Below, piece by piece: positions 2,027 through 61,267 of a stretch of 64,000 nucleotides of DNA; the first letter of the stretch is position 1, and each line of letters starts with the position of its first letter. Location of the stretch: NCBI GenBank assembly GCA_021816625.1, contig JAKAXM010000007.1, forward strand, positions 1 to 64,000, given 5' to 3'. The position numbers and the translations under genes were made by a program. This stretch comes from Pseudomonadota bacterium. Its GTDB lineage: Bacteria > Pseudomonadota > Gammaproteobacteria > Acidiferrobacterales > Acidiferrobacteraceae. Under the pieces are notes generated by a model. It worked only from the letters and a program-made list of their open reading frames with translations. It was not told where the DNA came from and searched no databases.

Positions 2027-3361
2027 CTAGGCGCGCCCCTTGCCCGGGCTCAAGAGCCCATGCCGTCCCAGGCGCCGGTAGAGTGTGCGTTCGCTTACAC
2101 CAAGCGCCTCAGCCATCGCCCGGCGTCGACCCTGGTGACGTTTTACCAGGCTTTCGAGACGGGCGCGCTCTCCGGCGGGGGCGTCGGATGGCGCGGGTAT
2201 GTGGGGCGCGCGCCGGTCTTCGAGTCCGAGGTCGCTTGCCATGATGGTGTCATCATGACAGAGGGCGGTGGCGCGTTGCAGGATGTTGCGCAGTTCGCGG
2301 ACATTGCCTGGGAAGTCGTATTGCTCGAGGCGCGCCCGCGCCGCCTCCGTGAGTTTGGTACGGCGGCCATTGGCGGTATTGATGGCCGCAAGGAAGGCCT
2401 CCGCCAGGAGCGGGATATCGGCCCGCCGTTCGCGCAGCGCCGGCAGCGTGATGGTGATGCAGGCGATGCGGTAATACAGATCTTCCCGAAAACATCCGGC
2501 GGCAACCGCCGCCTTCAGATCTCGGTTGGTGGCCGCTACGAGGCGTACCTCGGCATGCAAAAGCGCCCGGCCGCCCACCCGCCGGAAGGTCCCGGTCTCG
2601 AGGGTCCGCAAGAGCTTCGCCTGCATGGCAAGGGGGATCTCACCGATCTCGTCTAGAAAGAGCGTTCCGCCATGGGCGCTTTCGAAGAGACCCGTCTTGC
2701 GCCCCAGGCAGCCCGTAAAGGCGCCAGCCTCATGACCGAACATCTCGCTTTCGAAGAGCTGTTCGGACAGCGTCGTACAGTCCACGGCGACGAACGGTCG
2801 GGAGTGGCGAGGACTGTGGTCGTGCAGATAGCGCGCCGCCAGTTCCTTGCCGACGCCGCTCTCACCTTCGAGGAGTACCGCCGCACTGCTTGGGGCTGCA
2901 TGGCTCAATTGGTCGACGGCCCGCGCGAGCCGCTCCGAGCGGCCGAGCATGCGCATGTCTTCACAGTTCATGAGTCCCGGCGGCGCGAGCCTCTGTATGC
3001 ATTCGCCCAGCACGGTTTCGCCGTGGGGGAGGGTTACCGGATAGCCCTTGATGCCGACATATTCAGGGCGCCCTTCGGCGTCGAAGTGGGTGTGGACCAC
3101 GCGTTGCGTGGCGCCCTGAGCAAAGACCTGCTGGTGCGGACAGGCCTCCCCATGCAGGTGGCAGGGCGAGTCGCGGTGGTGGGAGACCTGATAGCACGCG
3201 CGCCCGATGACTTGGGCGTCGTCGACCCCGTAGGCTAGGCGATAGGCCCGATTGGCCGCGACGATACGATAGTCGCGATTTATGAGCACGGCCGGATGGT
3301 CCTGCATGTCGATCAGCGATTGGACCGAGGCGTGCTCGTGAGCTGTCCCTTCTGACATCAT
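2027..3361 (-). CDS. Sigma54-dependent PAS/AAA+ transcriptional activator
   Basis: A 444-aa one-component enhancer-binding protein. An N-terminal PAS domain (about 13-125) carries a Cys/His-rich patch with C56, H61, H62, C67 and C74. The AAA+ domain has Walker A GESGVGKE (166-173), Walker B LFLDEIG (234-240) and an arginine-finger region FREDLYYR (291-298). The sigma54-contacting loop reads GAFTGC (213-218) instead of GAFTGA. A Fis-type helix-turn-helix lies at about 405-432. There is no receiver domain, so it probably senses a signal directly through the PAS cysteines (inference). It is divergent from the DsrE/TusA/SQR operon, whose sigma54 promoter it most likely activates. ATGs at 3361 and 3358 are both possible; neither has a clear ribosome site, and an inverted repeat overlaps them. 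Confidence 0.9.
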
Positions 3362-3393
3362 GACATGACAGCACTGCCACAGCTGTCATGTCA
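3361..3393. promoter_or_regulatory. Perfect inverted repeat, likely enhancer site of the sigma54 activator
   Basis: The arms TGACATGACAGC (3361-3372) and GCTGTCATGTCA (3382-3393) are exact reverse complements, separated by 9 bp, so arm centres are 21 bp apart (two helical turns). The site lies about 75 bp upstream of the -24 element of the dsrE promoter, a normal enhancer distance. It also overlaps the regulator's own start codon, which suggests autoregulation. Binding is inferred, not shown. Confidence 0.75.
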
Positions 3394-3453
3394 ACTGACC
3401 GCGCAGGCCGCGGTTGTTCGCGGAAAGACGTCGCCCGAGGCCCTTTAAAATTG

Positions 3454-3469
3454 TGGCACGGTATTTGCT
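3454..3469 (+). promoter_or_regulatory. Sigma54 (-24/-12) promoter
   Basis: TGGCACGGTATTTGCT matches the RpoN consensus TGGCACG-N4-TTGCW throughout. GG at 3455-3456 and GC at 3467-3468 have the required 10-bp spacing. Transcription would start near 3480, giving a leader of about 75 nt before the DsrE-like gene. The bEBP gene and its inverted repeat immediately upstream support the call. Confidence 0.88.
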
Positions 3470-3556
3470 GTTGCCCCTCAAGCGAACGGTCGCGGTCCGC
3501 GCATGCTGGCCGCAGGGCCCGTCGTGACCCACTACATCCTTCCTCTAAGGAGCGTC

Positions 3557-3946
3557 ATGTCCGATAGTTTGCGCATTATCCTGACCTCGGGGACTCGCGA
3601 AAAACTGCAAATGGCGGCGATGACGGCGGCCGTCGCGGCCGCCGGAGGCGCCGATGTCCAGGTCTTCGTGTCCATGAATGCCTTGTTGTTTTTCCGGCGC
3701 GAGGCGGCGCCGGAGGCCCCCGCTGAAGGGGAGGTTGGGCGCTTGTTGATCGCTCGCAACGCCCCGCGCTTCTTGGACTTGTTTGCCCAGGCCGTGGATC
3801 TCGGGTCGGCCCAGATCTACCCATGTTCCATGGCCATGGACGTTTTGTCCCTGGGATCTGCCGATCTCGCCCCCTATATGGGCAAGCCGCTTGGACTCAC
3901 GAAGTTCCTGAGCGAGCTCGCGGGCAGTCATGTGTTGAGTTTTTAA
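3557..3946 (+). CDS. DsrE-family sulfur carrier/transferase
   Basis: A 129-aa product starting at the ATG preceded by AAGGAG; the longer ORF begins upstream of any ribosome site. The sequence LRIILTSGTREKLQMAAM followed by A/G-rich helices fits the DsrE/DsrF/peroxiredoxin-like fold. It holds a single cysteine in YPCSMAMDVLSL (near residue 93), at the position of the DsrE2-type active cysteine. DsrE proteins carry persulfide sulfur and exchange it with TusA. It is the first gene of the sigma54-driven operon and is followed 14 nt later by tusA. The exact subfamily (DsrE2, DsrE3) cannot be settled by eye. Confidence 0.8.
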   Translation: MSDSLRIILTSGTREKLQMAAMTAAVAAAGGADVQVFVSMNALLFFRREAAPEAPAEGEVGRLLIARNAPRFLDLFAQAVDLGSAQIYPCSMAMDVLSLGSADLAPYMGKPLGLTKFLSELAGSHVLSF

Positions 3947-3960
3947 GGGAGGTTGGGTGT

Positions 3961-4191
3961 ATGAGTGATATGAAAGTCGTCGATGCCCGCGGCAGTTTTT
4001 GCCCCGGGCCCCTCATGGAGTTGATCGCCGCCATGAAGGTCGTGGGCGTAGGCGATGAGCTCGAGGTCTTGTCCACCGACAAGGGCTCGGCCGAGGACAT
4101 ACCCGAATGGATCAAGAAGGTCGGGCACACGCTCGTTTCGAGCGTCGAGGAAGGCGGCGTTTACCGCCTGCGGGTTCGCAAGACCAAATAA
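3961..4191 (+). CDS. tusA: TusA-family sulfur carrier protein
   Basis: A 76-aa TusA/SirA-like protein. The start at 3961 follows GGGAGG by eight bases; the track ORF starting at 3823 is not needed. The signature FCPGPLMELI near residue 14 supplies the sulfur-binding cysteine in a CPGP version of the CPxP motif. TusA proteins pass sulfane sulfur between rhodaneses, DsrE proteins and oxidising enzymes in sulfur oxidisers. Its place between a DsrE-like protein and an SQR-like flavoprotein points to sulfur oxidation rather than tRNA thiolation, though the second role is not excluded. Confidence 0.87.
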   Translation: MSDMKVVDARGSFCPGPLMELIAAMKVVGVGDELEVLSTDKGSAEDIPEWIKKVGHTLVSSVEEGGVYRLRVRKTK

Positions 4192-4229
4192 GTGGTTACG
4201 GTGATCTCACATAAAGGGGAGTGGCACGG

Positions 4230-5366
4230 ATGAAAAGGATCCTCATAGTCGGTGGCGGCACGGGTGGCACCATACTCGCCAATAATCTGGCGCGCCGCTT
4301 AAGGCGCGAGCTCGATGGTGGGCAAGTTGCCATCACCATGCTCTCGGCGAGCGCCCGGCACATGTACCAGCCAGGGCTGCTGTACGTCGCCTTCGGCAAG
4401 ATCGCGGCCGCCGACCTTTATCGGGATCAAGAGTCTATCCTCGATCCCGCGGTGCGTTTTCACGTGGATCCGGCCGAGACCTTCGATCTCGATCACAACG
4501 AGGTCAAGGGTAAGAGCGGGACGGTCTACGGCTATGACTATCTCGCGATCTGTACGGGCTCGCGTCCGGTCTTGGCGCAAGTGCCGGGCCTTACGGAGGC
4601 CGCGCACCACGTCTATACCGAGGAGGCGGCGCTTAAGACCTGTGAGGCCTTGCGGACCTTCACGGGCGGCCGTATCGCCATCGTGACCGGCGTCCCCCAT
4701 AAGTGTCCCATGGTGCCGCTTGAGCTCACCTTTATGATGTACGACTACTTCAAGGACCGGGACCTTTTGGATAAGGTGAGTTTCACCTACACCTATCCTA
4801 TTGGTCGCATCCACTCCCTTGAGAATGTCGCCAAATGGGCAGCCCCCGAATTCGATCGCATGGGCGTACGTTACGAAACCCTGTTCAACGCCAAAGAGGT
4901 GGATGTTGCCCAGAAGCGGGTCCATAGCGAGGAGGGCACTTCTATCGACTTCGATCTCCTGATTTCGGTGCCGCCTCATAAAGGCATGGAGGCGGTCGAG
5001 CAGAACAAGCTCGGAGCCGGGGGCTTTATCCCGACGAACCGGACCACTCTGGCCATGGAAGGCCGCCAGAACGTGTTCGTACTGGGCGATACGACCAATC
5101 TGCCGATCAGTAAGGCGGGATCCACCGCCCATTACGAGGCCGAGGTTCTGGGTGAAAACCTAGCACGTCTGGCGACCGGCGGCGGGGCTATGCGCCCGTA
5201 CGAAGGCAAGGTCTTTTGCTTCATAGAGGCCGGCCGCGACCGGGCGACCTACGCCTCGTTCGATTATAAGAATCCGCCCAAACCGCGCCCGCCGACGCGC
5301 GCCATTCATTGGTTCAAGCTCGCTTATAACGAGCTCTACTGGAATAGCGTACGCGGTCTTCTGTGA
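4230..5366 (+). CDS. SQR-like FAD-dependent disulfide oxidoreductase
   Basis: A 378-aa flavoprotein starting at the ATG with AGGGGAG eight bases upstream; a GTG at 4221 sits too close to it. The N-terminal Rossmann motif is VGGGTGGTILANNL, a second FAD segment is YDYLAICTGS, and NVFVLGDTTNLP closes the FAD site. C159 in PHKCPMVPLE matches the sulfide:quinone oxidoreductase redox cysteine. C330 (VFCFIE) is a candidate partner. A C-terminal amphipathic stretch (HWFKLAYNELYW) suggests membrane association, as in SQR. It probably oxidises sulfide or carrier-bound sulfur to quinone; the real substrate is unknown. The downstream DUF1641 gene may encode a partner. Confidence 0.82.
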   Translation: MKRILIVGGGTGGTILANNLARRLRRELDGGQVAITMLSASARHMYQPGLLYVAFGKIAAADLYRDQESILDPAVRFHVDPAETFDLDHNEVKGKSGTVYGYDYLAICTGSRPVLAQVPGLTEAAHHVYTEEAALKTCEALRTFTGGRIAIVTGVPHKCPMVPLELTFMMYDYFKDRDLLDKVSFTYTYPIGRIHSLENVAKWAAPEFDRMGVRYETLFNAKEVDVAQKRVHSEEGTSIDFDLLISVPPHKGMEAVEQNKLGAGGFIPTNRTTLAMEGRQNVFVLGDTTNLPISKAGSTAHYEAEVLGENLARLATGGGAMRPYEGKVFCFIEAGRDRATYASFDYKNPPKPRPPTRAIHWFKLAYNELYWNSVRGLL

Positions 5367-5377
5367 GGGATGAGGTC

Positions 5378-5995
5378 ATGACTGACACGACAATAAACGG
5401 CGCCGGCGCGATCCTGGCCGAGGCCGGATTCGAAACCTTGACCGACGATATGATAACCCGACTCGCGCGCGCGGCGGGGGACGGCCTTACGCTTTTGGAT
5501 GGGGTTCGTGAGCACAAGACGGCGGAGGCCTTGGCGGTGCTCGGCACCATGGTCTCTTCCGGGGATCTGGCGCGCCTGGCCCATCTCGCCCGGCTCGTCG
5601 GGGCGGCCGAAGATGCGCTTACGGACGATCTCGTGGCCCGTATCGCCCATCTGGCGAGCGATGCCATGACCCTCTTGGACCGGGTCGGACGGCTGGATAT
5701 CGCCCATTATGAGCGGCTGGGGCGGCGTCTCGAGGAATCCTTAAGCCCGGACCTGTTCGAGCGGGTCCTTAAGGCCCTGCCGGTGGCCCTCGATCTCTTC
5801 GAACAGGCCGCGGCCAGCGGTCTCTTGCGTGACGTCTGCGCGGGGCTCGCCGCAACCCGTGAGGAGCTTGCGAAGACCGAGGCCCCGGGTGGGGGGCTTG
5901 GTGGGTTGTGGACCCTCATGAAGGATCCGGGGCACCAACGAACCCTGCAGGGCTTATTACTCTACGCGCGCCGGATCCTCGGGTCTGGGGTTTAG
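5378..5995 (+). CDS. DUF1641 family protein
   Basis: A 205-aa, Leu/Ala-rich helical protein. The ATG at 5378 is preceded by GAGGGATGAGG; a GTG overlapping the SQR stop is an alternative start. Repeated T-D-D-hydrophobic segments (LTDDMITRLARA, ALTDDLVARIAHL) and a C-terminal segment ending LLLYARRILG fit DUF1641, which recurs beside SQR-like and formate dehydrogenase genes. Its biochemical role is not known. Being last in this operon suggests an accessory or assembly role for the flavoprotein. There is no signal peptide. The gene ends one base before the convergent cupredoxin stop. Confidence 0.75.
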   Translation: MTDTTINGAGAILAEAGFETLTDDMITRLARAAGDGLTLLDGVREHKTAEALAVLGTMVSSGDLARLAHLARLVGAAEDALTDDLVARIAHLASDAMTLLDRVGRLDIAHYERLGRRLEESLSPDLFERVLKALPVALDLFEQAAASGLLRDVCAGLAATREELAKTEAPGGGLGGLWTLMKDPGHQRTLQGLLLYARRILGSGV

Positions 5996-5996
5996 G

Positions 5997-6614
5997 CTAG
6001 CCGTGCGCGCGGATCACGAAACGCCCGTACATCCGAAAGGCCCGCGCGTGTCCCGGCACAGGGCATAGGTAATAGTAGGTGCCGGCGCGCGGGGCCACGA
6101 AGGTGGTTGTGGCCTGGGCGTAGCGCGCCGCTTGCGGGCGGGCCTGCGAGCGGGGCGGCAATGTCGGGACGCGGGCCAAGGTATCGGGAAGCGGGCACGT
6201 CAAGACCACGGGATACGGGGGTTTGGCGGTGGTTATGACCAGCCCATGCTGCATACCGTTGCCGTAGTCCATGTTCAGTACTCGCAGCGTCACACGCGCG
6301 CCGGGGTTGACATATACGGTGGGGTCGGTGCGGCCGCCAGCCTCGAAGCTCATGTCGGGGTGTTGAGGCGCGTGGGCCACGAAGGTGATCGTCACCCGTT
6401 GGCCACGGAATACGACGCCGTGCCGCCCTCTGGTGTGCGGGTCTGTCAGGGAGGCATACTGCCGGGCCTGCTGCCATGTCACCCATTGCAGCCCGTGGGG
6501 CGCGGTCTGGGGCATACTCGACCCGGGGATGTGCGGCATGGTCATGGCGTGCGCCATGAGGGGCGTCGTGAGCAAGGCAGTCGGGAACAAGAACAGTCGG
6601 ATGCGCGGGCTCAT
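5997..6614 (-). CDS. Exported type-1 copper protein (rusticyanin/sulfocyanin-like)
   Basis: A 205-aa product; the start at 6614 has GAGG five bases upstream. A signal peptide (hydrophobic 6-20, ending AHA at 21-23) directs export. The C-terminal motif YYYLCPVPGHARAFRM gives C184, H189 and M195 as copper ligands, and GNGMQHGLVI supplies H123. The C-x4-H spacing matches rusticyanin and sulfocyanin, but H to M is x5 rather than x4. A longer N-terminal part and an internal insert (C140 to about 170) resemble those families. It probably moves electrons in the periplasm during sulfur or iron oxidation. It is convergent with the sulfur operon. Confidence 0.8.
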   Translation of the reverse strand: MSPRIRLFLFPTALLTTPLMAHAMTMPHIPGSSMPQTAPHGLQWVTWQQARQYASLTDPHTRGRHGVVFRGQRVTITFVAHAPQHPDMSFEAGGRTDPTVYVNPGARVTLRVLNMDYGNGMQHGLVITTAKPPYPVVLTCPLPDTLARVPTLPPRSQARPQAARYAQATTTFVAPRAGTYYYLCPVPGHARAFRMYGRFVIRAHG

Positions 6615-6673
6615 AGGGCCTCGGGAAGCCAGGGCGTGTGTAGGCACGATCATAGGAGACCGCGTAAGCCCGG

Positions 6674-7486
6674 TCAACGCGCGCTCAGGTCGTATGATGT
6701 GAAGAGTTGTTGCGGTTGCGTCTCGGCGTCGAGCACGAGTCGCCGCAGCTTGGCCTCGGCGGGTACCGAGAACGCAGGCCCCCGCACCAGGGTCTCGATG
6801 TCCCGATCGCCACCCAACACGCGCGCGGCGATCGTCAGGTAGAGGCGCTGGACTACACCGTCTTCGAGCAGACTATGGAAGAGGCGCGGACCCCCGATCA
6901 TGTAGACGCGGCCGAGTTCACGTTCGGCGAGGACGCGCAGCAATTCATGGCCGGTAACATGGGACGGCGAATCGACCGTCACGATCTCGACGCCGGCTTG
7001 GCGGATCGACTGCACCCGGCAGCTGTCGGCGACCTTCGGGCTTACGGTCACGACGGGGCCTGGGTGGGCGGCCTTGAGTTCCGCCCCCGGGAAGTCGAGG
7101 CGCGAGCTTACGACCACGCATGTCGGGTGGCCGCTCAAGCCGCGTGCGCGGCGGTAGTTGCGCAGGTCGGGGTAACGTTTGTGGGCAATCGCCATCATGT
7201 CTTGCTGTTCGCCGGAGGCGATGGCGCGGGCATGATGGGCGGTGGTCAAGACGGCGTCCGCCTGTACCAGCAACTCCGTATATAAACGCCAATCGCGGTC
7301 ATTGGCGATCGCTTCCGGAACGCCCTTGCGGCCGTTGGCGTTACGCATGGCGATGCGCCCATCCAGACTCATCAAAAAGTTGGCGTAGATGAACGGCGAT
7401 CTGCCGTTGGCCGGGATGTCCCCCATATACAGGCCTTCCAGGGCCACCCTTTCCGGGGGTCCCGGGTAGAGAGCCATGACGTTCAT
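6674..7486 (-). CDS. RibD C-terminal-domain reductase (pyrimidine/dihydrofolate reductase-like)
   Basis: About 270 aa from the chosen ATG at 7486; a start at 7594 is possible and neither has a strong RBS. PFIYANFLMSLDGRIA is the usual beginning of the RibD_C/DHFR-like fold, and VYMIGGPRLFHSLLEDG is the conserved NADPH-binding strand-loop. HLTIAARVLGG-type text near the end completes the fold. The stand-alone domain lacks the deaminase half of RibD, so it may reduce a riboflavin precursor or another pterin-like substrate. No riboflavin genes are nearby. Confidence 0.75.
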   Translation of the reverse strand: MNVMALYPGPPERVALEGLYMGDIPANGRSPFIYANFLMSLDGRIAMRNANGRKGVPEAIANDRDWRLYTELLVQADAVLTTAHHARAIASGEQQDMMAIAHKRYPDLRNYRRARGLSGHPTCVVVSSRLDFPGAELKAAHPGPVVTVSPKVADSCRVQSIRQAGVEIVTVDSPSHVTGHELLRVLAERELGRVYMIGGPRLFHSLLEDGVVQRLYLTIAARVLGGDRDIETLVRGPAFSVPAEAKLRRLVLDAETQPQQLFTSYDLSAR

Positions 7487-61123: not shown

Positions 61124-61155
61124 AAACCCCGTGGACATCCCTCCACGGGGTTTTT
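61124..61155 (+). terminator. Intrinsic terminator after fba
   Basis: CCCCGTGGA (61127) and TCCACGGGG (61142) form a perfect 9-bp stem with a 6-nt loop, then five T. It ends the Calvin-cycle operon. Confidence 0.95.
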
Positions 61156-61267
61156 CGTCTCGCGGCAAGAGGAACCAGGGCCGCCCGCATCCCGGGCGGC
61201 CCTGGTGTCCCTGTCGTTCCCGCGACCTTCGTGGCATACTCTCCGCAGCTGGTCAGTGGGGTATTGT

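Follow-up and report, generated by a model that had tools for sequence, protein, structure and literature searches.

How is the synthesis of cytoplasmic sulfur carriers controlled in sulfur-oxidizing lithotrophs? Such control is poorly known, and the described examples that we found are ArsR-type repressors and two-component systems. The question is raised by a locus at positions 2027 to 5995 of the window, i.e., of the 64-kb stretch of contig JAKAXM010000007.1 from a member of the Acidiferrobacteraceae that was analyzed here, where a regulatory gene diverges from a dsrE-tusA-sqr-like-DUF1641-like operon (Table 1). An earlier note on this DNA had read the locus as a sigma54-regulated sulfur-carrier module. 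This reading is supported by the analysis described below, and the invariant cysteine triad of the regulator sharpens it to a regulator of the FisR kind. With a probability of about 0.72, we consider the locus to be a FisR-type sulfane-sulfur switch that drives sulfur-carrier genes instead of the usual genes for sulfide:quinone oxidoreductase (SQR) and persulfide dioxygenase.

The regulator and its cysteine triad

The regulator is a protein of 443 residues, in which the Pfam scan detected the PAS_4, Sigma54_activat (PF00158), and HTH_8 (PF02954) domains and reported no match to a receiver domain. This architecture, a sensor followed by the AAA+ and Fis-type helix-turn-helix (HTH) domains without a receiver domain, is that of the FisR-type regulators and agrees with the divergent one-component activator proposed earlier. 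The start codon is the ATG at 3356-3358, with a second ATG immediately upstream (3359-3361). In the structure model (mean predicted local distance difference test score, 85.6), the AAA+ domain resembles sigma54 activators; among the matches listed by the fold search, there were only AAA+ sigma54 activators and none specific for the PAS domain. The sigma54-contact loop has the sequence GAFTGC, in which residues 1 to 5 are canonical and the sixth is a Cys; this last position is occupied by A, S, or C among the relatives. Among the regulators of the order that were examined, most have GAFTGC (here residues 212 to 217, encoded at 2708-2725 on the minus strand) in place of GAFTGA, which adds Cys217 at the polymerase contact.

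The PAS domain contains three Cys residues, Cys55, Cys66, and Cys73, in a C-x10-C-x6-C arrangement that is invariant in the alignment of 28 regulator sequences and found in all regulators listed, but is absent from all five other sigma54-activator homologues detected in this genome. His60, His89, and His91 of the same domain are also invariant in this alignment. In Cupriavidus pinatubonensis FisR, sulfane sulfur leads to the formation of a Cys53-Cys64 tetrasulfide (PMC9495516, PMC8614764), and three conserved cysteines are used (PMC9774590). The spacing between Cys55 and Cys66 is the same as that published for Cys53 and Cys64 (11 residues). With Cys73, the regulator also has a third cysteine, as FisR does. 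The invariant triad with the FisR spacing points, therefore, to FisR-type sensing and is good, though not conclusive, evidence for a sulfane-sulfur signal.

Regulators and sensors with this triad are also found in other genomic settings. In Pseudoalteromonas xiamenensis (L164, 2813-7305) and Marinobacterium marinum (L010, 4944-9287), FisR-like regulators carrying it diverge from genes for cytochrome bd oxidase, and a FisR-like regulator in locus L143 (6151-9221) adjoins genes for NapC/NirT-type and cbb3-type cytochromes, which suggests a respiratory target. In three further loci (L012, 6503-6781; L016, 6502-6873; and L042, 6508-6858), the C-x10-C-x6-C PAS domain is part of a histidine-kinase-like protein encoded directly upstream of a sigma54 activator. 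They may represent a related sensor in a two-component form.

Promoters and operators

The full -24/-12 promoter pointed out in the earlier note, TGGCACGGTATTTGCT at 3454-3469, is the sole match to two -24/-12 patterns on both strands of the window and is conserved in relatives. The genome encodes a single copy of rpoN, located elsewhere. In the entire genome, TGGCAC-N5-TTGCW has 6 matches versus 3 for the reversed control, so that the promoter match alone is modest evidence and its conservation carries the weight. Among 11 genus members, the mean pairwise column identity is 0.88 and 0.91 for the -24 and -12 elements and 0.92 and 0.95 for the two operators described below, as compared to 0.38 in the 3395-3450 region and 0.25 in the leader.

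The inverted repeat seen earlier upstream of this promoter is perfect: its arms, 3361-3372 and 3382-3393, are complementary in 12/12 positions and separated by a 9-bp spacer. Such 12-bp repeats are rare, with 5 in the window versus 0, 0, 0, 0, 0, and 2 in six 64-kb Markov controls. The conserved element, however, is a pair of operator copies: a single long palindrome was rejected because what the relatives retain is a 10-bp word in two copies; in most of them, the left arm has the sequence TGTCATGACA. The four other perfect 12-bp inverted repeats of the window are clustered near 61.1 kb (61124-61200), three of them overlapping.

The operator word, TGWCATGWCA, is found in five places in the 2.19-Mb genome, two of them in this locus and the other three inside or at the edge of genes for an IS110-like transposase, an ABC ATPase, and a PIN-like protein. 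As judged from exact words, a wider regulon in this genome was rejected, because those three genes are unrelated and the words in them are unlikely to be regulatory.

On the minus strand, the operators overlap a TTGACA-18-TGnTGTCAT element whose hexamers and spacing are the same in 12/12 loci of the genus members. The ATG of the regulator lies 6 nucleotides past the -10 hexamer in these loci, except for L128 (7 nucleotides), with ATGACA counted for L129. The element is likely to be a leaderless promoter of the regulator itself, and because it overlaps the operators, binding of the activator should limit further synthesis of this protein. Neither the Rfam scan nor the tRNA scan of the window gave matches.

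Conservation of the regulator-operon pair

Of 60 relatives searched, 25 encode the regulator and 36 the SQR-like protein. Within the window's genus, both proteins are encoded by 10 of 13 relatives and neither by the other 3. Both are present in all 3 members of the sister genus, where a single operator, TGTCATGACAGTATGACA, is retained and the -35 element of the regulator promoter has been lost. The SQR-like protein is encoded in 28 of 369 genomes class-wide, and loci in which a regulator of this kind diverges from dsrE-tusA-sqr come from another five families. A lack of conservation of the arrangement was among the findings that, according to the earlier note, would refute its reading; the arrangement is retained in the genus, the sister genus, and these five families.

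The operator and the promoter track the regulator. This comparison covers all loci with dsrE, with a 9/10 or better match counted as an operator and the expected numbers obtained by shuffling. In the loci with a divergent regulator, which come from six gammaproteobacterial families, the operator is present in 21/21 (0.43 expected) and a strong sigma54 promoter in 18/21 (0.16 expected). The respective numbers for the 31 dsrE loci without the divergent arrangement are 1/31 and 2/31, and the exceptions come from L202 and L145, where the regulator is encoded elsewhere in the cluster. In L202, it is located past the far end of the operon, and a 9/10 operator and the promoter remain upstream of dsrE; since they stay with the operon, the operator is more than just a promoter of the regulator itself. 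In locus L204, the region past the operon, ahead of a second SQR-like match, contains a further pair of an operator word and a strong sigma54 promoter, 72 bp apart.

Products of the operon and genomic context

Pfam matches confirmed the first three genes of the operon as coding for DsrE/DrsE_2, TusA, and Pyr_redox_2 proteins, respectively. The DsrE-like protein scores 34.2 bits against the DsrE/DrsE_2 family (PF13686; cut-off, 25 bits), and its Cys90 is present in 30/30 homologues. The start of dsrE, previously placed at 3503, has been corrected to 3557, where the homologues begin to align and which has an AAGGAG sequence upstream. TusA (PF01206; E = 4.8e-22) has the CPxP motif with the catalytic Cys in the form CPGP, with Cys14 conserved in 30/31 rows of the alignment, the remaining row being truncated. 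The nearest solved structures for the third protein are sulfide:quinone oxidoreductases, and its Cys159 and Cys330, found in 31/31 homologues, are aligned to the human SQR cysteines in the PVKC and SCPLV motifs. It is referred to as SQR-like because its score of 284.8 bits against SQR_III_seleno is below the cut-off for this named SQR type (525 bits). The last gene was earlier assigned to DUF1641. Its product itself gives no Pfam hit up to E = 10, but 13/40 members of its family match DUF1641 (PF07849), with the best E value of 3.7e-6. The protein is predicted to be helical, with a low-confidence packing (predicted template modeling score, 0.38). Pfam analysis detected no persulfide dioxygenase among the operon genes.

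Table 1. Features of the regulator-operon locus, with positions in the window
Feature	Position	Strand	Basis
fisR-like gene for a one-component sigma54 activator (PAS_4, AAA+, and Fis HTH)	2027..3358	-	Pfam domains, full-length orthologues, structure model
Cysteine triad codons: Cys73 (3140-3142), Cys66 (3161-3163), Cys55 (3194-3196)	3140..3196	-	Regulator alignment
Operator copy 1, TGACATGACA, left arm of the inverted repeat	3361..3370	+	Column identity 0.92, conserved in relatives
Probable regulator promoter, TTGACA-18 bp-(TGn)TGTCAT, overlapping both operators	3365..3394	-	Genus-member loci
Operator copy 2, TGTCATGTCAA, right arm, centre 23 bp from copy 1	3384..3394	+	Column identity 0.95
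Sigma54 -24/-12 promoter, TGGCACGGTATTTGCT, predicted start at ~3480	3454..3469	+	Conserved against a diverged background
dsrE-like gene for a sulfur carrier	3557..3946	+	DrsE_2; Cys90
tusA, sulfur carrier with CPGP motif and Cys14	3961..4191	+	PF01206
Gene for SQR-like FAD oxidoreductase with Cys159 and Cys330	4230..5366	+	Pyr_redox_2, solved structures
Gene for DUF1641-like all-helical repeat protein	5378..5995	+	Family members matching PF07849, helical prediction

A potential acceptor for the carriers is encoded on another contig (C7; L238, 2829-13707), where the genes for rhodanese (rhd), TusA, DsrE2, the Hdr-like subunits (sHdr), a lipoate-binding protein (lbpA), and lipoate ligase form a cluster that is the likely consumer of carrier-bound sulfur. 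In the window, the operon is convergent with a gene for a rusticyanin-like copper protein (5997-6677, minus strand; best PDB match, 2cak, E = 3.1e-14), which is in keeping with an iron- and sulfur-oxidizing acidophile. Together with the sHdr-lbpA cluster, this gene makes the organism a probable lithotroph. Its genus is presumably Acidiferrobacter.

A model of the proposed switch

The sequence itself shows the genes with their promoter and operators, the conserved cysteines, and the linkage; from these, we infer the signal, the binding and activation by the regulator, its autoregulation, and the direction in which sulfur flows, as follows. Sulfur from cytoplasmic persulfides or polysulfides would react with Cys55 and Cys66, and probably also Cys73, of the PAS domain, and the resulting di- or polysulfide bridge would free the AAA+ domain. 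The regulator, sitting at the two TGWCATGWCA operators, ~90 to 115 bp upstream of the predicted transcription start, would then drive open-complex formation by the RpoN-RNA polymerase at 3454-3469. The operon would provide the DsrE and TusA carriers, an SQR-related flavoprotein, and a DUF1641-like partner, which may load and move sulfane sulfur, most likely to the sHdr-lipoate pathway. Operator binding would at the same time mask the regulator's promoter and so limit its own synthesis.

A bolder version of this model, quite improbable in our estimation, sees here a distinct FisR branch whose role in lithotrophic Gammaproteobacteria has shifted from sulfide detoxification to carrier traffic feeding sHdr, with persulfidation of Cys217 as a second thiol switch that gates the sigma54 contact.

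Alternative interpretations

The alternative that survives best is compatible with a FisR-type switch and differs from it in the output: the circuit would work as described, with the operon serving sulfide or persulfide detoxification or a biosynthetic sulfur relay rather than energy metabolism. This is possible but doubtful. The sHdr cluster carries its own tusA and dsrE2, and the characterized FisR systems are detoxification systems (PMC7315123); yet the operon has no persulfide dioxygenase, and the sHdr-lbpA cluster and the adjoining rusticyanin-like gene indicate a probable lithotroph.

Another alternative retains the circuit and changes the signal, such that the PAS cysteines would sense general thiol oxidation, tetrathionate, nitric oxide, or a Cys/His-bound metal, and the operon would respond to redox conditions or metals. 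The three invariant histidines could indeed form a metal site with the cysteines, and some triad-bearing regulators flank cytochrome bd and NapC/NirT-type cytochrome genes, i.e., respiratory and not solely sulfur genes. However, cytochrome bd is itself sulfide-induced in Acinetobacter baumannii (PMC7315123), and neighbors of the sulfide-oxidation type are found in several loci. These include Pyr_redox_2/SQR-type genes in L139, L142, and L008, the carrier operon in this locus, and, in L163, a gene pair of the type expected for persulfide dioxygenase and SQR, which encodes a metallo-beta-lactamase protein and a Pyr_redox_2 protein. The regulator that diverges from this last pair is the Cupriavidus metallidurans homologue, 45% identical to the one described here. 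A signal other than sulfane sulfur appears, on balance, rather unlikely.

It is very improbable that the 3361-3394 block is mainly the leaderless sigma70-type promoter of the regulator, with the operon controlled by sigma54 via another activator or site: TTGACA-18-TGnTGTCAT and the near-fixed distance to the ATG are kept across the genus, but the conserved stretch exceeds the hexamers, the sister genus retains the operator without the -35, the operators in the five other families stand at different distances, and L202 has the operator and promoter with the operon and the regulator at its far end.

Several observations weigh against the FisR-type sulfane-sulfur switch. A. baumannii FisR has no sensing cysteines and still drives a sulfide-induced operon (PMC7315123), so the triad and the signal are not strictly coupled, a point that also favors a different signal. 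The sequence identity to the FisR kind was measured with the C. metallidurans homologue and is 45%, and the operator word is absent from the L163 intergenic region. In two loci, L205 and L209, the only -12 elements are degenerate. Within the genus, some of the operator conservation could reflect the regulator's own promoter, and the loci behind the 21/21 count are not phylogenetically independent, which makes the six families a fairer count.

Relation to known systems and implications

The FisR of C. pinatubonensis JMP134 (Li et al. 2017, as described in later papers) is likewise a one-component sigma54 activator of sulfide-oxidation genes with three conserved cysteines; its targets are genes of the SQR/persulfide dioxygenase kind, in contrast to dsrE-tusA-sqr-like-DUF1641 in this locus. 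The C. metallidurans homologue has GAFTGA and no such operator word, whereas this clade has GAFTGC. The A. baumannii system is similar in having a divergent sigma54 activator, a sulfide-induced operon, and a predicted sigma54 promoter, and differs in the absence of the sensing cysteines and in the operon content (pdo1, sqr, and tauE-type genes; PMC7315123). The sHdrR and SoxR proteins of Hyphomicrobium denitrificans (PMC10451225, PMC12423496) also respond to sulfane sulfur but are ArsR-type repressors. TspS/TspR of Acidithiobacillus caldus (PMC12194929) provides another case in which an acidophile controls sulfur oxidation via sigma54; unlike the one-component regulator described here, it is a two-component system with a histidine kinase and controls sox genes. 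The DsrE3A-TusA pair of Metallosphaera cuprina (PMC4175335) is, as here, a carrier pair encoded near sulfur-oxidation genes in an acidophile; it is archaeal and adjoins Hdr-like genes, and the abstract of that paper mentions no FisR-type regulator.

In the open-licence literature, we found no report of a FisR-type regulator linked to this carrier operon. Thus, the kind of sensor is already known, and what appears to be new is its link to a sulfur-carrier operon. The locus would represent a compact and conserved activator circuit, in which the promoter is defined, the operator has a specific sequence, and three cysteines are candidate sensors. The operator word permits regulon searches in other genomes. 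The circuit would also place FisR-type sensing in acidophilic iron and sulfur oxidizers, organisms of the kind used in mineral leaching.

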